Shown: positions 25,691 to 63,573 of the stretch, one piece after another
How positions within the stretch are numbered: the first letter of the stretch is position 1
Layout: the number at the start of each line of letters is the position of its first letter
DNA from: Mytilus galloprovincialis
Taxonomy: Eukaryota; Mollusca; Bivalvia; Mytilida; Mytilidae
Assembly: GCF_965363235.1 (NCBI RefSeq)
Contig: NC_134846.1
Span: forward strand, 75,924,724-75,988,723
DNA: 64,000 nucleotides
Direction: 5' to 3'
Notes under the pieces: generated by a model
The model's database searches: none
Told to the model about the DNA's origin: nothing
The model's input: the letters and a program-made list of their open reading frames with translations, nothing else
Translations under genes and position numbers: made by a program

Positions 25691-27516
25691 TTTTTATACC
25701 GCAAAAATTTTAATTTTAAGTCGTATATTGCTATCACGTTGGCGTCGTCGTCTTCCGATTACTTTTAGTTTTCGCACTCTAGCTTAAGTAAAAGTGAATA
25801 GAAATCTATGAAATTTTAACACAAGGTTTATGACCACAAAAGGAAGGTTGGGAGTTTTGGTCCCAATATTTTAGGAATTAGGGGCCAAAAAGGGCCCAAA
25901 TAAGCATTTTCTTGGTTTTCGCACAATAACTTAAGTTTAATAAAATAGAAATCTATGAAATTTTGACACAAGGTTTATGACCACAAAAGGAAGATTGGGA
26001 TTGATTTTGGGAGTTTTGGTTCTAACAGTTTAGGAATTAGGGGCCAAAAAGGGGCCCAAGTAAGCCTTATTCTTGGTTTTCGCACCATAACTTTAGTTTA
26101 AGTAAATAGAAATCTATGGAATTTAAACACAAGGTTTATAACCACTAAAGGAAGGTTGTGTTTGATTTTGGGAGTTTAGGTCCCAACAGTTTAGGAATAA
26201 GGGGCCCAAAGGGTCCAAAATTGAACTTAGTTTGATTTCATAAAAAATTGAATAATTGGGGTTCTTTGATATGCCGAATCTAACTGTGTATGTAGATTCT
26301 TAATTTTTGGTCCCGTTTTCAAATTGGTCTACATTAAGGTCCAAAGGGTCCAAAATTAAACTTAGTTTGATTTTGACAAAAATTGAATTCTTGGGGTTCT
26401 TTGATATGCTGAATCTAAAAATGTACTTAGATTTTTGATTATTGGCCCAGTTTTCAAGTTGGTCCAAATCGGGTCCAAATTAAACTTTGTTTGATTTCAT
26501 CAAAAATTGAATAATTGGGGTTTTTTGATATGCCAAATCTTCCTGTGTATGTAGATTCTTAATTTTTAGTCCCGTTTTCAAATTGGTCTACATTTAAGTC
26601 CAAAGGGTCCAAAATTAAACCTGAGTTTGATTATAACAAAAATTGAATTCTTGAGCTTTTTTGATATGCTGAATCTAAACATGTACTTAGATTTTTGATT
26701 ATGGGCCCAGTTTTCAAGTTGGTTCAAATCAGGATCCAAAATTATTATATTAAGTATTGTGCAATAGCAAGAAATTTTCAATTGCACAGTATTCAGCAAT
26801 AGCAAGAAATCTTCAATTGCACAATATTGTGCAATAGCAAGAAATTTTCAATTGCACACTATTGCGCAATAGCAAGAAATCTTCAATTGCACAGTATTGT
26901 GCAATAGCAAATATTTTCAATTGCACAGTATTGCGCAATAGCAAGAAATTTTCGATTGATTGGAGTTATCTTTCTTTGTCCAGAATAGTAGTTGAATCAA
27001 CTTAAATCATTGTTTTATACAATATACAATGTAAATTCACTTTTACTACCAACTGATAAATTAAAACAATCTTTACCATTCAGTGATAACAAGCACCTTT
27101 TGTTACATTTTAATATTTTATGATGTATTTAAATGAGTAGGTATTGTTGCAAACTCCATTAGAAATTTGAATTGAGATCAGTTTTGGAAAAAGGGAAAGG
27201 GGGATGTGAAAAAAAAAGGGGGGGGGGTTAAATTTTTCTCATTTCAGATTTCATAAATAAAAAGAAAATTTCTTCAAACATTTTTTTGAGAGGATTAATA
27301 TTCAAAAGCATAGTGAATTGCTCAAAGGAAAAAAAAGTATTTTAAGTTCATTAGACCACATTCATTCTGTGTCGGAAACCTAGGCTGTGTCAACTATTTA
27401 ATCACAATCCAAATTTAGAGCTGAATCCAGCTTGAATGTTGTGTCCATACTTGCCCCAACCGTTCAGGGTTCAACCTCTGCGGTCGTATAAAGCTGCGCC
27501 CTGCGGAGCATCTGGT
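25691..27516 (+). mobile_element. Helentron-like non-autonomous element, copy A
   Basis: Starts TTTTTATACCGC (copy B has TTTTTATACGACCGC) and ends with the inverted counterpart GCGGTCGTATAAA, then a short hairpin GCTGCGCCCTGCGGAGC and ATCTGG. The interior holds tandem 130-160-bp cores (GGAATTAGGGGCCAAAAAGG, GGTTTTCGCAC words) and a 36-bp array built on TGCAATAGCAAGAAATTTTC (26745-26960). Asymmetric terminal repeats with a 3' hairpin after the inner copy are the layout of non-autonomous Helentrons, and tandem cores recall bivalve pearl elements. No coding capacity. Family placement is inference. Confidence 0.6.
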
Positions 27517-28189: not shown

Positions 28190-30775
28190 ATACAACAAGA
28201 ATGTGTCCAAAGTACGTGGATGCCCCACTCGTACTATCTTTTTATACGACCGCAAAATTTGAAAAAATTTTCGTCGTATATTGCTATCACGTTGGCGTCG
28301 TCGTCGTCGTCGTCGTCCGAATACTTTTAGTTTTCGCACTCTAACTTTAGTAAAAGTGAATAGAAATCTATGAAATTTTAACACAAGGTTTATGACCACA
28401 AAAGGAAGGTTGTGATTGATTTTGGGAGTTTTAGTCCCAACATTTTAGGAATTAGGGGCCAAAAAGGGCCCAAATAAGCATTTTCTTGGTTTTCGCACTA
28501 TAACTTTAGTTTAAGTAAATAGAAATCTATGAAATTTTGACATAAGGTTTATGACCACAAAAGAAAGGTTGGGATTGATTTTGGGAGTTTTGGTTCCAAC
28601 AGTTTAGGAATTAGGGGCCAAAAAAGGGCCCAAATAAGCATTATTCTTGGTTTTCGCACAATAACTTTAGTTTAAGTAAATAGAAATCAATGAAATTTAA
28701 ACACAATGTTTATGACCACAAAAGGAAGGTTGGTATTGATTTTGGGAGTTTAGGTCCCAACAGTTTAGGAATTCGGGGCCAAAAAGGGACCCAAATAAGC
28801 ATTTTTTTTGGTTTTCGCACCATAACTTTAGTATAAGTAAATAGAAATCTATGAAATTTAAACACAAGGTTTATGACCATAAAAGGAAGGTTGGTATTGA
28901 TTTTGGGAGTTTTGGTCCCAACAGTTTAGGAATAAAGGGCCCAAAGGGTCCAGATTTAAACTTTGTTTGATTTTATCAAAAATTGAATAATTGGGGTTCT
29001 TTGATATGCCGAATCTAACTGTGTATGTAGATTCTTAATTTTTGGTCCCGTTTTCAAATTGGTCTACATTAAGGTCCAAAGGGTCCAAAATTAAACTTAG
29101 TTTGATTTTAACAAAAATTGAATCCTTGGGGTTCTTTGATATGCTGAATCTAAAAATGTACTTAAATTTTTTATTATTGGCCCAGTTTTCAAGTTGGTCC
29201 AAATCGAGGTCCAAAATTAAACTTTGTTTGATTTCATCAAAAATTGAATAATTGGGGTTCTTTGATATGCCAAATCTAACTGTGTATGTAGATTCTTAAT
29301 TTTTGGTCCCGTTTTAAAATTGGTTTACATTAACGTCCAAAGGGTCCAAAATTAAACTAAGTTTGATTTTAACAAAAATTGAATTATTGGGCCTCTGTGA
29401 TATGCTGAATCTAAACATGTACTTAGATTTTTGATTATGGGCCCAGTTTTCAAGTTGGTCCAAATCAGGATCCAAAATTATTATATTAAGTATTGTGCAA
29501 TAGCAAGAAATTTTCAATTGCACAGTATTCAGCAATAGCAAGAAATCTTCAATTGCACAGTATTGTGCAATAGCAAGAAATCTTCAATTGCACAGTATTG
29601 TGCAATAGCAAATATTTTCAATTGCACAGTATTCTACAATAGCAAGAAATATCTAATTGCACAATATTGTGCAATAGCAAGAAATTCCAATTGGATTTCA
29701 ATTGGAGTTATCTTTCTTTGTCCAGAATAGTAGTTGAATCAACTTAAATCATTGTTTTATACAATATACAATGTATATTCACTTTTACTACCAACTGATA
29801 GATTAAAACAATCTTTACCATTCAGTGATAACAAGCACTTTTTTTACATTTTAATATTTTATGATGTATTTAAATGAGTAGTTATTGTTGCAAACTTCAT
29901 TAGAAATTTGAATTGAGATCAGTTTTGAAATAAGGGAAAGGGGGATGTGAAAAAAAAATTGGAGGGTCAATTTTTTTCATTTCAGATTTCATAAATAAAA
30001 AGAAAATTTCTTCAAACATTTTTTTGAGAGGATTAATATTCAACAGCATAGTGAATTGCTCAAAGGCAAACATTTTTTTTTAAGTTCATTAGACCACATT
30101 CATTCTGTGTCAGAAACCTATGCTGTGTCAACTATTTAATCACAATCCAAATTTAGAGCTGAATCCAGCTTGAATGTTGTGTCCATACTTGCCCCAACCG
30201 TTCAGGGTTCAACCTCTGCGGTCGTATAAAGCTGCGCCCTGCGGAGCATCTGGTTCCATGTTCCATGGACCGTGAAATTGGGTAATAATCTAATTTGGCA
30301 TTAAAATTAGAAAGATTATACTATAGAGAACATAATTTTATGTACTAAGTTTCAATTTCATCAAAAACTTTTAACCTGAAAATCCCACTGTCATTTTCTA
30401 TGATCAGTGGACCATGAAATTGGGGTCAAAAGTCTAATTTGGCTTTAAAATTAAAAAGATCATTTCATAAGCAACAAGTGTACTAAGTTTCAAGTTGATT
30501 GAACTTCAGCTTCATCAAAAACTACCTTGACCAAAAACTTTAACCTGAATTTCCCACTTTCATTTTCTATGTTCAGTGGACCGTGAAATTGGGATCAAAA
30601 GTCTAATTTGGCTGTAAAATTAGAAAGATCATATCATAAGCAACACGTGTACTAAGTTCCAAGTTGATTGGAATCAGCTTCATCAAAAACTACCTTGACC
30701 AAAAACTTTAACACGGACGAACGAACGGAGCCACAGACCAGAAAACATAATGCCCCTCTACTATCGTAGGTGGGG
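28190..30775 (+). repeat. ATGCCCC-type dispersed repeat, split by insertion
   Basis: The left part (28190-28238) has GTGTCCAAAGTACG, GGATGCCCCACTCGTACTAT. The right part (30256-30775) has three tandem units of about 150 bp built on GTGGACCGTGAAATTGGG and CTAATTTGGC, ending GTAGGTGGGGCAT. Between them lies Helentron-like copy B. A second copy in reverse sits at 34150-34400. Terminal ATGCCCC / GGGGCAT words are inverted. Confidence 0.65.
28239..30255 (+). mobile_element. Helentron-like non-autonomous element, copy B
   Basis: Same layout and largely the same sequence as copy A: TTTTTATACGACCGC start, (GTC)n run near 28295, tandem cores, 36-bp TGCAATAGC array (29490-29690), GCGGTCGTATAAA and the GCTGCGCCCTGCGGAGC hairpin at the end. 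It is nested inside the ATGCCCC-type repeat. The flanks differ from copy A, so this is transposition rather than a segmental duplication. Confidence 0.65.
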
Positions 30776-43291: not shown

Positions 43292-46200
43292 CTAACATGG
43301 AAGCGGACATATATCAGGAGTCACAAAACTGAAAAATAAATATTTGTTACATCTAATAACATCATATATAAAGTTCAATCATAAAATATGAAAGATAATT
43401 AGACTTTTAAACAAGCAATCTACGTCAAATAGATAATCACACTTTGTTGTAGACCATGGCTCTCCCCATCGCACCTCAGAGTTGTTCATATATATTTCCC
43501 ATTTTTAGAGCTATGGATGTAGTGATGTTATATATTGTGTATGCAGGACAACATGCTAGTGTGGTACGATTTGAGCTTTATATGAGTCAGTTGTTGTCCT
43601 AAATTCAACACATGACTGCATAATAAAGTTAACATAAAAAAAAATTGTTTATCCATCTGTCAGTGTAAACACATAAATATTAAGAGCAAATTGAATCTTG
43701 TTTTAAAATAACAACTTTGTTTATCTTTATGTGTACAGCCTATCTATATCTGATTAGTTTTCAATTATATGATACTCTTACCTGTGCCTGGCATCATCAC
43801 TATAAAGCCTGTCTTTTGTATAATATTTAGATATCACATTTTTGTCAAATAAAAACGAATTCTTTGTTATAAATTCGTCAAAAGTTAATGCTGATGTTCT
43901 ATTAACACTATCAGCTACTATAGAAATATAGAATCCTGTTATAGTCTCATGGTATCCAAATTTTACCTGAAAAATAAAGGAATTGCTTCATTATAGTCTA
44001 GTATAATCTCTAATAGGTTTAACATTTAATGCTATAGCAGAGAATAAAGATCACTCATTTCCATTGAGTTAACAGTTTCTACTGACCTACTGAGAGCATC
44101 TTTTTTGTTATTTTGTAAAGGTATACATTAATAATTTTAATTCTCTAGATTATTTTATCTTTTCTTTGCTTCCTCTGTGTTACACTTTTCTTACAGTTTT
44201 TAAAGAAGTAATTATGACCTTATATTCTTTTCTTTACATACATTACAAATTTTTAACGAAAGAATTTGATTTCAGAAAAAAAATAATCCCCATAACAAGG
44301 GGAGAGCACACAATTGCCATCCATTGTTTCAGTAAGAATTGAGTGGTTTTAAGTTAGATAGGTGTAAAAAATAACCAGTGAAGTATCTACTAAACTTACT
44401 TTGTCTTTGTTTTGTTCATTGAAATGCTGAATACCTTCCCTGTAATACAATAAAATGTAAGAATATGTTTAACTAGAAACCATCTCTGTGAATAACGTGT
44501 AGTAAGAAAGTTGTATCTTTATAAACACAGGACATCGGGTTGTCAACCAAAGTTTTTGAACTTGACCTTTGACCTAGGAAGTTGTACATACATTATGACA
44601 CACCCTCTGGAGCTGGTTAATGTACATGTCAAGTATAAACTTTGAAATCATAATGGTTCTCAAGATATAGAACGGACACAATCTTTACCATAGGATATGG
44701 GTTTTCTACTGAAACCAAAGTTTTTGACTTTGACCTTTGACCAAGGAAGTTGTATATACATTATGACACACCCTCTGTTGATGGTCAATATACATGTCAA
44801 GTATAAACTTTGAAATCATTACGGTTCTCTAGATGTAATGCAGACACAATTTGTTATGGACTACAGGGTAACCCTCCAATTGGTGGTGCCCTAATAATGT
44901 ATACAACACAAATTATTTCTAACTGAAAATCATGTATTTTTTTTAAAACATTTCTAGTAATATTTATGATGGCATCATAGATACTGATATTCTGTTGTTT
45001 GCTTTTCTCGAGCATAATAAACTCAAGGATTTGTATAGTAAAAAAACTCCTTGATAACATATAAAATATGCCTATAAAATTGTGCTAAAAAGAGGGAATA
45101 TATAATGTCCTAATGACCATAGTAATTTTTTATACTTCTCTGTCTATCCATGTATAAAGAAATCGTCCAAATTAAAATGCTTTCCAATTTTAAAATACAA
45201 TACTCAAACAGTTGTTTAAAAATTTGCACCATCAAAAAATAAAAATTTGCAATTTTTTTTAACCCACCTTATAAAAGGGGTAGCCTTCTCTTTCCCATAT
45301 TCTGTAATATAAGTCCAAGCCATTCTCAAGTGAGCTTCATGTGTCCAGTCTTCATACGGTAACGTTGCATCCTCAAAAGCTTTTATAAATATTTCATCCC
45401 CAACTGATCTGAAAGATCTGAAATATAGTGTAAAAACAATCTTGTTAGTTGTGTCTACTTTCAATCCTCCCAGTAAAACAAGGATTTGACAAAATATTGA
45501 ATCAAATTTTTACTGTGATTTTTACCTTAATAAGATAATTTTATAGAATTATGTCGAAGAGTGCAAACTATATCCTTACAAAATGAGTTTTTTTTTTTTA
45601 AACTTTATTGAACTAGAAGACATCAGATACTTACCATAGCAAAAAGGAAATCTACCATGATGACCTCTTGAACCAGGTAACAAATATGTCATCTCATGTT
45701 AGCAGTAAAGGTAACTGCCCTCAAACATTACATGTGTGTAAAAAATAAATAAGTTATAACTGAATAAAGACATACTCACTTAAAGTAGTATAAAAGTGTA
45801 TCTGGAGCATTATCTGAAACAACCGCATCAAATACACTGCCATACCATACATGGTGGTCTCCAACAGTGTGCACTGAATGTACTCTACACTGCATTACAG
45901 CAGAACAGCCTGCTATAATGGGGATTCCCTGTTAATATACAAAACATTTTGATGAATTTTGCATTTGCACTGTACATATTTTTTTGTTTTTTTTTAGGAT
46001 TTTCTTTTTGCTTTAAGGGGAGGGGGAGGCCTTGGTTACCCCAAATTTTTCATCTGGTTTAATTTTTCTATATTGACACAATTGAATGAGTAGGGGTACT
46101 TTCCTCATCAGCAAAAGTCTTTTGAAATTAACATTGCATTTTATGTTTGGAGTATATTGAGTATGGTCAGTTTTGGAAAACCCTTAAAACAGTTGAAAAG

Positions 46201-49200
46201 TAGGCATATCTTGTTGTTTGATTGTGCACATGGTCACAATAGGAATATCAACAACTGTTAAAATATATAGTAGAAACATATTTTAAAGTAAGTCTGAAAT
46301 ACCACGAATACCCTGTAACACAAGATGACAATCTTGTATGTAACAGTAAAATCTATGTTCACCTTCAAATCTTTCTTTTATCAAATCCATGTTGATTCAT
46401 AGACGTGTCAAATCCATGTCCTTTGTTTTCTCACATCTGTGTTAAAAAGGGCCAAATTGAGTCTGGACATAGATTTGATGCTCTTAAATATACAGAATAT
46501 TAAAAAAGAAGTAAACATCTATAAAAGGGTGTATAAGCCTAAATATCCAGTTTGATTTTTTTTTTCTTAAATCCAAAATTGTTTTTCTAAAATTCTGAAA
46601 ACGGTAAGCTGATTAAAAGTGAAAGAAGTTTTTAGAGGCTTTCAACTTGCAAAAAACAGATTTTTCAATTATAAAACAATGTTTGCATGAAACCTTTGGA
46701 CGGTTTATGCTGTGAATATGAGCACACACTTTATACATTTTTGTTAAGGGCATTGAATGACATCTAATGATAAGTATATACAAGTAGTAACTAATTTCGT
46801 GTAATTTATTAGAGGTGAGGACACCATAATTTTAAACAATGATCTCAATAACCAGTTTTGCAACGTTTCAGCATTCTCATTATGATATATTTTCATGTTT
46901 GTTTTAAAAGTAATGAAGCCTTGATGACCAAATGGTCAAATAGATTTAAAGGTCACAGATTTGAATTCAGTGATGTCTGATTGAACTGAGTCTACCTTCT
47001 AAAGAGATCACTGATTTTAATAAGCCAAGGGCAACAGAATTGATTTTCGTGACATCATAGGACAAAGATTTGAGTCTGGACATAGATCTTATCCTTGCAT
47101 GTTTATAATACATTTTTAATCATAATTATATGCTTACAAATAACAATATAATACCTCATGTCCCTGTGTGTGTGGTACTCTGACAAATTGATCTATATCA
47201 TCATTTACATGCTTGGCAAATTCTAAACTATATGCAACCTGTAAGTAAAAGCTTCATTTTAATCTTTTATAAAAAAAACCAGTAAAAATAATTTATGGAG
47301 CTAAAACAAAGGTGTGTTCGAACATTAAAAAATAATCTATCATCTTTTTCATGTTACATATATGAACAGAATAATTTCAAAGACTTCATTACTTTTTGTA
47401 TTTGTTTTAAAATCTTACAGATAAAACAGGTTAAAAATCAACTCTCATGACTAAATATTCTTAGTGTTTCACATGTGTTTTAGTGGTTTAAGTCTTTTCA
47501 TATTTGTTTTCCATAATTGTATAGTAATAAATCATGCTGTTAGTTTTTCTGGTTTCAAAAGTTTAACATCTTTCATGTTAGGGTCTTTTATAGCCTACTA
47601 TACAGTATGAGGTTTTCCCATTGTTGAAGGCCATATAGTGACCTCTAATTTTGTATATTCACGTCATTAAACTCTGTGGATAGTTATCTCATTAACTATC
47701 TAACATCATCTCCTTATTTTTAATATCTGAAATATTACCTGATCTTTTCCCAATACATGGATGGCAAAGTGCTGTGTTCTCAAAAGTAGATCATGCATTT
47801 TACTGAAAAAATGGAAAATATCAAAAACAATGCAGTAAAGTAAAATACACATGTATGCGAAAAGTGTAAACAGAAAACAGCTCTAAAATTACCTTCAACA
47901 TAAGCAATTAGGACTAAAAAGTTGGAGAATATAAATTTTAGGATCCCAAACTAGAAAAAAAACCTTACTGTAAAATGACAAATTCTAAGCTTCATAACAA
48001 AATATTGTCTAATGCATAAAGAAACATTGTTGAAGTTCTTTAGCAAAACATTACCTATTACTTATATAGCTATTCATGTATAAGAAGCTTTAGTTTAAGT
48101 AAGTTTATACTAATTTCAGGAATGAAAAAAATCATAACTGAATTACCTTGGTTGGTTGACACAGGATGATACAATAGGTGTATGATTAGGTTAATTTTAC
48201 CTTGGTTGGTTGACACAGAATGATACAATAGGAGGAGGATAAGGTTAATTTTACCTTGGATGGTTGACACAGAATGATACAATAGGTGGAGGATAAGGTT
48301 AATTTTACCTTGGATGGTTGACACAGAATGATACAATAGGTGTATGATTAGGTTAATTTTACCTTGGATGGTTGACACAGAATGATACAATAGGTGTATG
48401 ATCAGGATAATTTTACCTTGGATGGTTGACACAGAATGATACAATAGGTGTATGATTAGGTTAATTTTACCTTGGATGGTTGACACAGAATGATACAATA
48501 GGTGTATGATTAGGTTAATTTTACCTTGGATGGTTGACACAGAATGATACAATAGGTGTATGATTAGGTTAATTTTACCTTGGATGGTTGACACAGAATG
48601 ATACAATAGGTGTATGATCAGGTTAATTTTACCTTGGATGGTTGACACAGAATGATACAATAGGTGTATGATCAGGTTAATTTTACCTTGGATGGTTGAC
48701 ACAGAATGATACAATAGGTGTATGATTAGGTTAATTTTACCTTGGATGGTTTACACAGAATGATACAATAGGAGTATGATTAGGTTAATTTTACCTTGGA
48801 TGGTTGACACAGAATGATATAATAGGTGTAGGATTAGGTTAATTTTACCTTGGATGGTTGACACAGAATGATACAATAGTTGTATGATTAGGTTAATTTT
48901 ACCTTGGATGGTTGACACAGAATGATACAATAGGTGTATGATCAGGTTAATTTTACCTTGGATGGTTGACACAGAATGATACAATAGTTGTATGATTAGG
49001 TTAATTTTACCTTGGATGGTTGACACAGAATGATACAATAGGTGTATGATTAGGTTAATTTTACCTTGGATGGTTGACACAGAATGATACAATAGGTGGA
49101 GGATTACGTTAATTTTACCTTGGATGGTTGACACAGAATGATACAATAGGTGTATGATTAGGTTAATTTTACCTTGGATGGTTGACACAAAATGATACAA

Positions 49201-52200
49201 TAGGTGTATGATTAGGTTAATTTTACCTTGGATGGTTTACACAGAATGATACAATAGGTGTATGATCAGGTTAATTTTACCTTGGATGGTTGACACAGAA
49301 TGATACAATAGGTGTATGATCAGGTTAATTTTACCTTGGATGGTTGACACAGAATGATACAATAGGTGTATGATCAGGTTAATTTTACCTTGGATGGTTT
49401 ACACAGAATGATACAATAGGTGTATGATTAGGTTAATTTTACCTTGGATGGTTGACACAGAATGATACAATAGGTGTATGATTAGGTTAATTTTATCTTG
49501 GATGGTTGACACAGAATGATACAATAGGAGGAGGATAATGTTAATTTTACCTTGGATGGTTTACACAGAATGATACAATAGGTGTATGATTAGGTTAATT
49601 TTACCTTGGATGGTTGACACAGAATGATACAATAGGTGTATGATCAGGTTAATTTTACCTTGGATGGTTGACACAGAATGATACAATAGGTGTATGATTA
49701 GGTTAATTTTACCTTGGATGGTTGACACAGAATGATACAATAGGAGGGTGATAAGATACATTTGTGAAGGAGGTACAGGTTAATCCTTTGTTCATCCATC
49801 TGTTCTTCAGAATATCATATTCTGCTGTTGTTACCACTACAACTGTAAAGAAATATAGAAAAGTGGAATATGTAATAAGTCATCTGTCACAGAAACACAT
49901 AATATGCTTTCCCTCTAAAAACTTAATAAATATATAACTCCCCCCTTAAGTAAGCCAAGATTAAGAAATATTTCGTAAAAATCAACTGAAGCTAATTTTT
50001 ATACGACCCCAAAAAAATTTTTGGGATCGTATAATGGTATGATGTTGTCGTCGTCGCTGCATCATCGTCTGCGTCGTCCGAAGACACATTGGTTTCTTGA
50101 AAACAACTTCAGTTTAACTGAATAGATCTTTATGAAATTTATTCAGAAGGTTCAATACCACAAAAGGAAGGTTGGGATTCATTTTGGGGATGATAGTTCC
50201 AACCAACTAGGAATAAGGGGCCCAAAAAGGGCCAAAATTAAGCATTTTTCTAGTTTCAGGATAATAACTTGTGTATAAGTATTTCAATTGCTCTGAAATT
50301 ATACTGCAATGTTTAAAACCACAAGTAGGAGGTTTGGATTCATTTTAGAGGTTATGGGGCCAAACTTTAGGAATTAAGGGCCAAAAAGGGGTCAAAACAA
50401 GCATTTTTCTAGTTTCAAGACAATAACTTGTGAGTAATTGTATGGATTTCTCTGAAATTGTACCACAATGTACCATATAACAATGGGGAGGCTGGGATTA
50501 AGTTTTGGGTTAATTGCCCAAAATAAGTAGGAATTAGGGGCCAACAAAGGGCAAAAAAGAAGCATGTTTCTAGTTTCCAAACAATCATGACAATAACTTG
50601 TGTTTAAGTGTATGGATCTCTCTGAAATTGTACTACAAGGTTCAATACTACAAAGGAAAGCAATAGATTGAGTTTAAAGGTTATTGCTCCGAGGGGGTTT
50701 CAAAAAAGTTGGGGGAGGGACTTTTGTTTACCATTTTTTTAAGGGCTTCCTTTTTTTTCAACATTTTTCAAATTTCGAATTTCGAATTTTGAAAAGTTTC
50801 AAGAAGAAATCAAATTCAGACAGAATCAAGCTTCAATATTGTGACCAAATTTGCCCCAACTGTTCAGGGTTTTACCACTGGGTCGTATAAAGCTACACTT
50901 AAAAACAAGAAATTGTTTGAAAACTACAAAAATGCTTATTTTAGGCCCCTTTTTGGCCCCTAATTCCAAATCTATTGGGACAAGAACCCCTAAAGTCAAT
51001 CCCAACCTTCCTTTAGAGGTATTGAACCTTCTGGTTTATAAAGATCCATAAAACTAAAGTTATTGTCCGGAAAATGAATGCGACGACCCAGACAATGACG
51101 ACATGATAGCTTTATATGATGCAAAACATTTTTTGCAGTCGTATAAAAATTGACTCCATGAAAGTAGGAATTGACATAATCTAAAAACTTCAACACAAAC
51201 AGCAGTCTGCTTCTTTTACAAAAAAAGACAGTTTAATATTTGTTAATCTGTTATTCATCTAATATTCTAATATGACGTGCTACTTTCTCTTTGTAAACAA
51301 CACTGTGTGAAAAATCTCGATATATCTATACTTAGCGCAGACTCAGAGATATACATAATAATGAATGTTACAATATACCTCCGACGTCAATCCGCGTATT
51401 TGAACCTACTTTGCAAACGCTTTGCCAATTTTATTGTATTAGAAATTGTAATAAAACAAAAGACAAAAGAACTTTCATTCTTATTCGGATGCATAATAAA
51501 AAGAATTTATTGCAACTAGTTTTGCTTATTTTCTAAATATAGTAACACAGCTATATTTTGTGCAATGTCAATTTCATCATGGAACACTTTCTCTACAATC
51601 AGGGGTTCATTAAGGGATGAAAATAAGCTTGATATTTATGTTTCGATTTTTAAAGCTATCAATATACTAATTTGCAGTATAAAAACAATATTTAGTCAAT
51701 GTCACAAAAATATAAACTTTTTTGTAACCATCGAAGTTCGTATAATATTGTATTAAAATGGAATTCTGAGGTAGGTTTTGTTTTGTTTTCTATTCTATTG
51801 CATTTGATTTCAGCGAGTCAACATGGCAGCTCCTTAGTTACGAAATGTCAATTTTGGATTTGACAGTAGCTTACGAGAAAACATGTAAATTGAAAATCTG
51901 AAATATTGGGTTTGAGAATTAAACATATTTTTTCTAGCGGTTATTAACGAAATAATCAATGCAAGCTAAAGATTTATGAGAATATTTGAGCTTTATCTAA
52001 CAAGGAGTAAATAAAACCAGGTACACACACGTCATACCCACCCTCGCTTCAGTATTTGAATGAACTTATTTGTCCTATTAGAATCAAAATAATTCATGGA
52101 AGCCATAGATTTGTTGTAAATTTACACATGGCCTGGGCCGTGATATTCGTTAATTTTATCCCTCGCTAACGCTCAGGATAAAATTCGAATATCACGGCCC

Positions 52201-52891
52201 AGGCCATGTGTAAATTTCCAACTACACATGGCCTGGGCCGTGATATTCGTTAATTTTATCCCTCGCTAACGCTCAGGATAAAATTCGAATATCACGGCCC
52301 AGGCCATGTGTAAATTTCCAACTAATCTGTGGCTTTCATGAATTATTTCTTAAATAGAGTCAATTTAAAGTTAGAAGTTTTTTATGTTCTTTTGTGTACC
52401 TTCAGTAATTCTACTGATCAAGATGTAGAAACAAGGGGAGGATTGAGATAAAAAATAAAAAAAAGTTTAACTCGGCCAAATAGTCACCTGTCTGTCCAAA
52501 GTATGGTACGTCATCATTGGTTGACTCATGTCAATGTTTTAATATTTATTGTGAGAACAAGGTTTCAATGGCATATATTTGGTAGTCTGTTCAATTGATT
52601 TTGCATTATTTTTAGATTGGATGGAAATAAGGGCAGGACATGTACATGTTGTGTCTGGCCTATGCTTGAAGATTGCGTTTTGACCTCCAGATGTCTTTTG
52701 TAAATTTGTGTTAAAGGTCTATAACCATTGATAACTGTGTCATTGGCATATTCCCTAAATCTATTCTTTTTAATACAACTGAGTATACTATAGTTTACCT
52801 GATTGTGGAACTTTTCCCATCAGTTTTTTGTATAACCTATCAACAGCTGATTCGTAAGGTTTGTCAATCTGTTTTGAGCTATTCTCTGAAG
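43292..52891 (-). CDS. Flavin reductase-like domain fused to a HEAHL/YHET domain
   Basis: Nine exons, 5' to 3': 52891-52799, 49842-49713, 47802-47739, 47238-47155, 45928-45780, 45417-45268, 44439-44400, 43966-43782 and 43328-43292. All are GT/AG with matching phases, giving 309 residues plus a missing 5' end. The N-terminal part resembles FMN-binding split-barrel flavin reductases (VVVVTTAEYD, GLTCTSFTNVSYHPPIVSFC, then HDLLLRTQHFAIHVLGKDQ and GCSAVMQCRVHSVHTVGDHH). The C-terminal part carries WTHEAHLRMAWTYI and GYHETITGFYISIV, motifs I associate with an uncharacterised bacterial helical family. The histidines and acidic residue could form a ligand site. No known mammalian counterpart comes to mind. 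Substrate unknown. The exon ending at 49713 is the source of the 54-bp minisatellite. Confidence 0.8.
43967..44399. other. Intron of the flavin reductase-like gene
   Basis: Between exons 44439-44400 and 43966-43782. No repeat recognised. Confidence 0.5.
44540..44870 (+). repeat. Two tandem 165-bp units in an intron
   Basis: Units share ACCAAAGTTTTTGAACTTGA, CATTATGACACACCCTCTG and GTCAAGTATAAACTTTGAAA. Lies in the intron between exons 45417-45268 and 44439-44400. Confidence 0.75.
45929..47154. other. Intron of the flavin reductase-like gene
   Basis: 1.2 kb, AT-rich. Nothing recognised. Confidence 0.5.
48142..49744 (-). repeat. 54-bp minisatellite, 30 copies, made of exon end plus splice donor
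   Basis: Thirty units at a constant 54-bp pitch: the ACCTTGG landmark runs from 48145 to 49711 in 29 equal steps. Read on the gene strand, each unit holds 32 bases of the flavin reductase-like exon end (from CCTATTGTATCATTC to CATCCAAG) followed by 22 bases of intron start (GTAAAATTAACC...). So each unit copies the 5' splice site. The unit next to the exon is the real exon end. Units differ at a few positions only (TGTATG/TGGAGG, ATTAGG/ATCAGG, TTGACAC/TTTACAC), which points to recent homogenisation. The long open frames here (up to 214 residues) arise only because 54 is a multiple of three. Confidence 0.95.
49843..49995. other. Intron next to the exon at 49842-49713
   Basis: Contains the 3' splice site (TTTACAG on the gene strand). 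Otherwise plain. Confidence 0.5.
49996..50900 (+). mobile_element. Helentron-like element, copy C
   Basis: Starts TTTTTATACGACCCC, ends GGGTCGTATAAAGCT. Core units share GGAATTAGGGGCC and AGCATTTTTCTAGTTTC words with copies A and B but are clearly diverged. It lies in the first confirmed intron of the flavin reductase-like gene. Confidence 0.6.
50901..51149 (-). mobile_element. Helentron-like element, copy D, partial and inverted
   Basis: On the - strand it starts TTTTTATACGACTGC at 51149 and contains GGAAGGTTGGGATTGACTTT and GGAATTAGGGGCC. It abuts copy C tail to tail. Confidence 0.55.
51150..52085. other. Intron stretch of the flavin reductase-like gene
   Basis: Open frames at 51277-51756 (+) are not recognised. 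Non-coding as far as I can see. Confidence 0.4.
52086..52348. mobile_element. Foldback element with duplicated palindromic core
   Basis: Outer arms (AATTCATGGAAGCCA at left, TGGCTTTCATGAATT at right) are inverse. Inside, a hairpin of about 85 bp (ACACATGGCCTGGGCC ... GGCCCAGGCCATGTGT, loop near CTCGCTAACGCTCA) occurs twice in tandem at a pitch of about 101 bp. Arms of the hairpin are almost perfect, so the DNA can fold in several alternative ways. It lies in an intron of the flavin reductase-like gene. Confidence 0.8.
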
Positions 52892-61350: not shown

Positions 61351-62384
61351 TATGTCATTATTATGTTGTTCTCACATCGAACATGTACATAAAACAGTAC
61401 GATAATCACTTCAATAGGAGGCCGTGTACTACTATAAAGGAAGAACTGAGAACCTTCGTAAGGGAGTTACCATTTGATTTTTAGGGGTCATAGAACACAA
61501 TTTATCATCCTAGCCCAATTCTAAAAGTCAAATTGTAGCTCCCTTATATGAGAACTCATGGGAGATTGTACACAATAACAAGCAATATCGTTCACATATG
61601 GATCATGCTTAGGGAACCCAGGACCCTGTGGAGCAGGAGCAAATATCTATGCTGAGAAAGTTAAACTTGCTGCAAGACTGTATAGACCTGTGGCATAATG
61701 AGGATCCATCCTCCTGGCATAACTCCTGGCATAACTCATAACGATTCTTATGGTGCTTGAATACTGCATTACAGAAAATATGTACAAGCCTGAAGGCAAT
61801 GACAAAAAAAAAAAAAATTCTCTGACAGTCAAAGGGCTGTAGGACTACTAAGACTGAACTGGGCCCCAAATAACTATATTTCCGTAATAAGAGATATAAA
61901 AGAAAACATAGATCATCTAAGGCTTAAAGGACTTCATGTAATTATATCGTGGACACCAGGACATGGATGATGCCAATATAGCTGACAATGACGAGGCTGA
62001 CGTCCTTGCAAAACTGACAGCAGCACATAAAGCAAAAGAACTACTACTGGAAAATAACGTCATTTATAACACTTCACAACGTCAAACAGGCAGCCTATAA
62101 AAGTACAGGAGAAAAATAGCAGAGAAGATGGGAATTATCTGAGAAAGATAGGAACCTGTACGAAAAATACCAACTACGAAGCACTCAATTGCACTCAATT
62201 GTGTATGATTTTCCAACTATACGACATTTCAACATATTCGCCCTACTAAAAGACATTTCAGCATATTCGCCCAACTAAGAACTGGCTACACAGAACTCAA
62301 CTACTATTATACAAGAAACGAGTAGGCCAAGTCAGAGGGGAATCGTCAGTTTCGTATGCTCCATTATTATTACACAAAAAGACT
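61351..62384 (+). mobile_element. Broken retroelement RNase H region, tandem unit 1
   Basis: 1034 bp. Contains an RNase H start (GNPGPCGAGANIY), an ISWTPGH block and a NDEADVLAKLTAAH block, then a downstream stretch recalling the LINE tail (LRTGYTELNYYY). Probably a LINE of an RNase H-bearing clade; an LTR origin cannot be excluded. It is broken in several places and is a fossil. Immediately followed by unit 2. Confidence 0.65.
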
Positions 62385-63573
62385 TATGTCGTTATTATGT
62401 TGTTCTCACATCGAACATGTACATAAAACAGTACGATAATCACTTCAATAGGAGGCCGTGTACTATATAAAGGAAGAAGAACCTTCGTAAGGGAGTTACC
62501 ATTTGATTTTTAGGGGTCATAGAACACAATTTATCATCCTAGCCCAACTCTAAAAGTCAAATTGTAGCTCCCTTATATGAGAACTCATGGGAGATTGTAC
62601 ACAAAAACAAGCAATATCGTTCACATATAGATCATGCTTAGGGAACCCAGGACCCTGTGGAGCAGGAGCAAATATCTATGCTGAGAAAGTTAAACCTGCT
62701 GCAAAACTGTATAGACCTGTGACACAATGAGAATCCATCCTCCTGGCATAACTCATAACGATTCTTATGGTGCTTGAACAGTGGCGGATCCAGGGGGGGG
62801 GGGGGGGGTTCCGGGGGTGCGCACCCCCCCCCTTTATTTTTTGCCGATCAATGCATTTGTATCGGGACATATGTTTTGCACCCCTTTGCACCCCCCTTTG
62901 CCCTGGGTTAGCACCCCCCCTTTCGAAAATTCCTGCATCCGCCCCTGTTGAATGCTGCATTACAGAAAATATGTACAAGCCTGAAGGCAATGACAAAAAA
63001 AAAAATTCTCTGACAGTCAAAGAGCTGTAGGACTACTAAGACTGAACTGGGCCCCAAATAGCTATATTTCCGTAATAAGAGATATAAAAGAAAACATAGA
63101 TCATCTAAGGCTAAAAGGACTTCATGTAATTATATCATGGACACCAGGACATGGATGATGCCAATATAGCTGGCAATGACGAGGCTGACGTCCTTGCAAA
63201 ACTGACAGCAGCACATAAAGCAAAAGAACTACTACTGGAAAATAACGTCATTTATAACTCTTCACAACGTCAAACAGGCAGCCTATAAAAGTACAGGAGA
63301 AAAATAGCAGAGAAGATGGGAATTATCTGAGAAAGATAGGAACCTGTACGAAAAATACCAACTACGAAGCACTCAATTGCACTCAATTGTGTATGATTTT
63401 CCAACTATACGACATTTCAACATATTCGCCCTACTAAAAGACATTTCAGCATATTCGCCCAACTAAGAACTGGCTACACAGAACTCAACTACTATTATAC
63501 AAGAACCGAGTAGGCCAAGTCAGAGGGGAATCGTCAGTTTCGTATGCTCCATTATGTTTACACAAAAAGACTT
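62385..63573 (+). mobile_element. Broken retroelement RNase H region, tandem unit 2
   Basis: Second copy of 61351-62384, by eye about 95 percent or more identical, longer by the MITE at 62779-62947 plus its 5-bp duplication. The unit boundary is sharp (GACTT then ATGTC). Broken like unit 1; fossil. Confidence 0.75.
62779..62947. mobile_element. hAT5-like MITE, 169 bp, with visible empty site
   Basis: Ends CAGTGGCGGATCCAGG and GCATCCGCCCCTG. Direct repeat TTGAA at 62774-62778 and 62948-62952. The matching place in unit 1 (near 61758, GGTGCTTGAATACTGC) lacks the element and has a single TTGAA, proving a 5-bp duplication and insertion after the tandem duplication. The open frames here are by-products. 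Confidence 0.92.

Follow-up and report, generated by a model that had tools for sequence, protein, structure and literature searches.

The mussel Mytilus galloprovincialis carries a flavin reductase-like gene in which the end of one coding exon, together with the 5' splice site that follows it, stands as 30 tandem copies. The array lies on the minus strand of the window analyzed here, a 64,000-nucleotide stretch of contig NC_134846.1. We consider it probable that this is a neutral minisatellite derived from one exon-end duplication, in which the first donor is used by exon definition and a small leak of transcripts goes to decay.

Tandem Repeats Finder reports a minus-strand array at 48143-49744 with a period of 54, 29.7 copies, 96% matches, 0% indels, and a score of 2938. 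This agrees with the extent given in the first-pass annotation (48142-49744), although the true start lies deeper in the exon, at 49762; re-phased from there the array is 1620 bp long and contains exactly 30 copies of 54 bp (Table 1), and when these are cut in register on the minus strand they align without any indel. The earlier description of a minisatellite made of an exon end and its donor therefore holds, with coordinates and copy number right to within half a copy, but the proposed division of the unit (32 bases of exon, 10 of donor) does not: each unit corresponds to exon positions -50 to -1 plus the intron bases GTAA, and donor positions from +5 onward within the array are the exon part of the next copy. 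Copy 30 ends at GTAA and is followed by different intron sequence, TTCAG, unlike copies 1-29. Both ends of the array thus fit a duplicated segment running from exon -50 to intron +4, and hence a whole number of copies, and the donor of copy 30 would be the ancestral exon-intron junction.

Table 1. Features of the array and its host gene (window positions).
Feature	Positions	Strand	Remarks
Tandem array, 30 x 54 bp	48143..49762	-	begins with the end of the exon itself (copy 1); copy 30 enters unique intron
First donor GTAA, read as productive	49709..49712	-	AAG/GTAAAA, since copy 2 follows
Broken donor, the only one in the array	49493..49496	-	GT to AT; predicted U1 pairing -0.3 vs -6.8 kcal/mol
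Last donor	48143..48146	-	AAG/GTAATT; the only donor with unique intron behind it
Coding exon, 130 nt, flavin reductase core	49713..49842	-	ends in array copy 1; joins in frame at both ends
Next coding exon, 64 nt	47739..47802	-	acceptor TTTCAG ending at 47803
Upstream coding exon completing the PF01613 start	52799..52891	-	lower end from frame, upper end by eye
Downstream exons 47238-47155, 45928-45780, 45417-45268, 43966-43782, 43328-43292	43292..47238	-	last ends in TAG

The copies are not uniform along their length. Seven positions, all within the first 20 and none in the last 34, separate copy 1 from the consensus of copies 2-30. This clustering has a Fisher probability of 0.0004, with the split at column 20 picked after the differences had been seen. 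The first 20 bases of copies 2-30 are nonetheless 12 to 15 of 20 identical to exon positions -50 to -31. Copy 29 is the best of the 29 (15/20) and is equalled nowhere in the window outside 48100-49800 on either strand; copies 28 and 5 have 14/20 (the fraction of window positions as good is 4e-5), and copy 2, the commonest type, has 13/20 (5.5e-4). Among themselves, copies 2-30 vary at 13 of 54 columns, seven in the first 20 and six in the last 34. These variable columns are not significantly clustered (p 0.19) and so give no sign of selective upkeep of the donor, nor is there any higher-order pattern, as the similarity of adjacent copies does not exceed that of random pairs (p 0.22). In our reading the fixed differences arose in an early duplicate, whose changed sequence was then propagated through the array, although constraint on, or gene conversion of, the 34 donor-proximal bases could also cluster them in this way.

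A search of the 1.38 Gb assembly with the 54-bp unit gives 15 matches, all of them in the array (a lower bound, as very common words were skipped). As a background for repeats of this size, twenty 10-kb stretches sampled from this contig contain eight repeat rows with a unit of at least 20 bp and at least five copies, none exceeding 12.3 copies; exons are unannotated in these stretches, which therefore provide no base rate for exon-end arrays. The window contains several other repeats. A 35-bp minisatellite unit is present twice (26753-26958 and 29489-29693) and recurs on the opposite strand of one of the sampled stretches (L017:3407-3645), some 52 Mb distant on the contig; a dispersed element is therefore its probable carrier. 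At two places (25848-26740 and 28330-29480) tandem copies of a 161-bp unit give way to a unit of roughly 135/260 bp, and a similar-looking 161-bp unit lies on the other strand of another sampled stretch (L026:29-653). One 29-bp repeat is found at both 62213-62278 and 63401-63466, 1188 bp apart, and because the open frames around the two match each other, the pair looks like a fairly recent tandem duplication. An open 770-codon frame has 17 matches to the mussel decapeptide (Mytilus foot-protein repeat), in keeping with a Mytilus host.

The host is a real gene by its match to the flavin reductase-like family PF01613 (Flavin_Reduct). The open frame holding the 130 nt exon alone matches the profile with E 1.9e-7 (31.7 bits against a cut-off of 27), and the six exons from the one ending at 52799 through 45417-45268 join in frame to give 134.3 bits against the same curated cut-off (E 4.8e-39), covering profile positions 1-152 of 153. 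Both the end of the array exon at 49713 and the start of the next exon at 47802, as first annotated, are in frame and lie inside this match. The upstream exon was picked from five candidates by a family pattern, and the PF01613 match of the joined exons then supported the pick; the intron between it and the array exon contains two copies (100% matches) of a partly palindromic 100-bp unit at 52123-52324. Among the 23 sequences of solved relatives with E up to 0.01 (142-residue query), most bear the name of a flavin reductase or oxidoreductase. Further downstream, 45417-45268 and 43966-43782 join out of frame in the gene model, and a short exon is therefore probably missing between 45268 and 43966. 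No paralogue is found in the 1.38 Gb assembly below E 2.7: searches with the protein of the exon pair and with PF01613 each return two matches, both at the host locus, and a search with a longer protein (E up to 10) returns nine, of which six are the host exons and three lie elsewhere with E 2.7 or worse. The host is thus the only PF01613 gene found.

The choice of donor has a simple consequence for the product. Joining donor 1 to 47802 gives the in-frame junction NHP-S-KMHDLL, and by donor 1 only does the frame stay open through the array junction. The first-pass annotation had predicted that any other donor would add an in-frame stop, and this is so for all 29: each of donors 2-30 has its first stop at the same residue, a TAA right after the shared Arg. 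The exon would be 130 nt long by way of donor 1 and 1696 nt by way of donor 30, with introns of 1910 and 344 nt respectively. Skipping of the 64 nt exon that follows would shift the frame.

The donors themselves are alike. GT is kept at 29 of the 30 donor positions, the exception having its +1 position at 49496; 28 of the 30 read AGGTAAAATT, and the last reads AAGGTAATTC. The 28 are alike over the first eight intron bases and are spaced at 54 nt or a multiple of it. Predicted pairing with the U1 5' end is -6.8 kcal/mol for these 28, -6.6 for donor 30 and -0.3 for the broken donor; five other donors of the host gene, the upstream exon's donor being left out, range from -5.8 to -11.5 kcal/mol. 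Because predicted pairing is so similar among the array donors, donor strength does not single out donor 1, and position rather than strength should decide. Predicted RNA accessibility, taken up with a hairpin over the donors in mind, cannot tell them apart either. The four-nucleotide donor core has a median access of 0.017 in the array versus 0.084 at other nearby GTs, with little difference for the donor 9-mer (0.008 versus 0.012), but 30 shuffles of the first 20 columns give donor-core medians from 0.007 to 0.073 (10th percentile 0.021), a range in which the array lies toward the low end.

The favored explanation begins with a single 54-bp tandem duplication over the exon-intron boundary (exon -50 to intron +4), which would have given the exon an additional donor after its original one. 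Free of coding constraint, the added copy would have drifted at its 5' end, and later growth would have carried the array to 30 copies, as minisatellites do. Because its acceptor and body are intact, the 130 nt exon would be the one that the splicing machinery mostly defines, using donor 1, and the remaining 28 intact donors would be mostly ignored intron. A small fraction of transcripts would use donor 2 or a later one, read the TAA, and probably be decayed. The sequence directly establishes the array, the resemblance of its units to the exon end and the consequences for frame; the order of events, use of donor 1, leak and decay are inferred. The origin of the unit and the whole number of copies count in favor of the duplication; fixed differences confined to the 5' end of the unit are what one would expect had an early copy changed before the array did most of its growing; and the fact that the gene reads in frame through the array junction only by donor 1 counts for its use. 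Counting against this explanation, the last donor scores above the other array donors (2.38 versus 1.02) with a splice-site weight matrix. Studies of competing donors point both ways, since SRSF1 favors the intron-proximal site and hnRNP A1 the distal one (PMC5585400), and the intron-proximal end is the unproductive one in this gene.

The closest known counterpart runs counter to the first-pass suggestion that no case quite like this had been described. In human ABCA7, a 25-bp VNTR in intron 18 begins with the exon 18 donor and ranges from about 12 to 427 units, with 23.7 in the reference (PMC5954066). Retention of one unit through an intronic donor leads to a premature stop and, by the apparent order of the figures, makes up 2 +/- 1% of transcripts independently of VNTR length; transcripts retaining a unit rise when decay is blocked. 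This level, unaffected by length, counts for a small leak in the mussel gene; against it, the 2% was measured with decay active, so real use of donor 2 would be higher. Both loci have a minisatellite directly behind an exon with the donor inside the unit, and in the mussel the unit holds the exon's donor with GT in 29 of 30 copies. They differ in that the ABCA7 unit is 25 bp starting from GT, whereas the mussel unit is 54 bp with 50 exon bases, so that the mussel donors keep nearly full exon context and the AG/GT junction. One extra unit shifts the frame in ABCA7, whereas in the mussel it preserves the frame but runs into TAA immediately.

A different use of the array, as a means of tuning expression by copy number, was suggested in the initial annotation and is one we regard as unlikely. 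A longer array would give either more late-donor use and decay or more skipping of the next exon, so that copy number sets expression. The TAA shared by all 29 late donors would suit such a role, and longer VNTR alleles of ABCA7 go with lower expression and more skipping of the following exon; however, the unit-retaining isoform there is unchanged by length, and the authors saw decay unaffected by it (PMC5954066). As for the copy number itself, it is very unlikely that it is an assembly artefact in which a repeat was collapsed or stretched: the 13 variable columns of 54 among copies 2-30 anchor individual copies, unique intron or exon lies on both flanks, and the unit is matched nowhere else in the assembly by a search that gives a lower bound. 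Alleles are still likely to differ genuinely in copy number. Translation of the array in another frame as an 18-residue repeat is an idea that we reject and give almost no credence. The unit is indeed 18 codons long, and open runs in one frame reach 226 codons, but a C-to-A change interrupts that frame in four copies and the host gene uses a different one.

The remaining alternative is that errors are repaired by the array itself. Each copy forms a complete GT...AG stretch whose terminal AAG/GT could serve as both acceptor and donor, a property we doubt strongly, and products of late donors could be mended if donor 1 were spliced once more, to the AAG at the end of the copy concerned, giving normal mRNA (a recursive, or iterated AGGT, intron), which seems equally doubtful. 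If true, the array would amount to up to 29 silent, interchangeable introns, unseen in mature RNA. Each copy has one AG (30 in 30 copies), with 29 AGGT among them; columns 8-12 hold a branch-point-like yTnAy in 27 of the 29 copies; and of the 30 AAGs in the array, counting the one that ends the exon, 22 reach 1.25 with an acceptor weight matrix, by which three acceptors of the host gene fall below the array (0.98, 0.20 and -0.65) and three above it (1.74, 4.25 and 5.28), the scoring covering six of the eight acceptors in the gene model. This matrix is nevertheless a weak judge, as 15 of the 18 AGs of the region that it ranks above the array are non-acceptors in the gene model, and AAG acceptors are a weaker class than CAG. 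Moreover, in a one-copy step the branch-like A would sit near position +15 relative to the donor, closer than the usual geometry allows, and use of donor 2, the likeliest error, would thus be beyond such repair. Duplication of AGGT segments has made introns elsewhere (PMC4974935), which speaks for this alternative.

Tandem duplication of AGGT-containing segments is described as a route to intron gain in the Rogers model, in ATP2A1, in fission yeast SPOG_01682 and SOCG_00815, and in potato RdRp (PMC4974935, PMC3629103). The fission yeast introns lie inside exon-derived tandem repeats, at a site given as AGGC in PMC3629103 and as AGGT in PMC4974935, and the duplicated segment in potato RdRp spans an intron-exon boundary. 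Tandem copies containing AG/GT are common to these cases and to the mussel array, with its 29 AGGT in 30 copies, but in the former the duplication made a new intron, whereas in the mussel the donor of a presumed existing intron is present in 30 copies. In DOK7 intron 4, as in the mussel, neighboring donors compete and one or more are unproductive, although there the choice is between two unlike donors 11 nt apart (PMC5585400), compared with 29 intact donors, 28 of them alike, at steps of 54 nt or a multiple. What sets the mussel array apart from ABCA7 is the presence in each unit of 50 exon bases and the AG/GT junction, which ties the array to the AGGT-duplication model of intron gain. For the likely behavior of the mussel array, ABCA7 is the best available guide, and since every copy bears almost the same exon end, the array offers a natural test of choice among many equal 5' splice sites in a nearly constant exon context.
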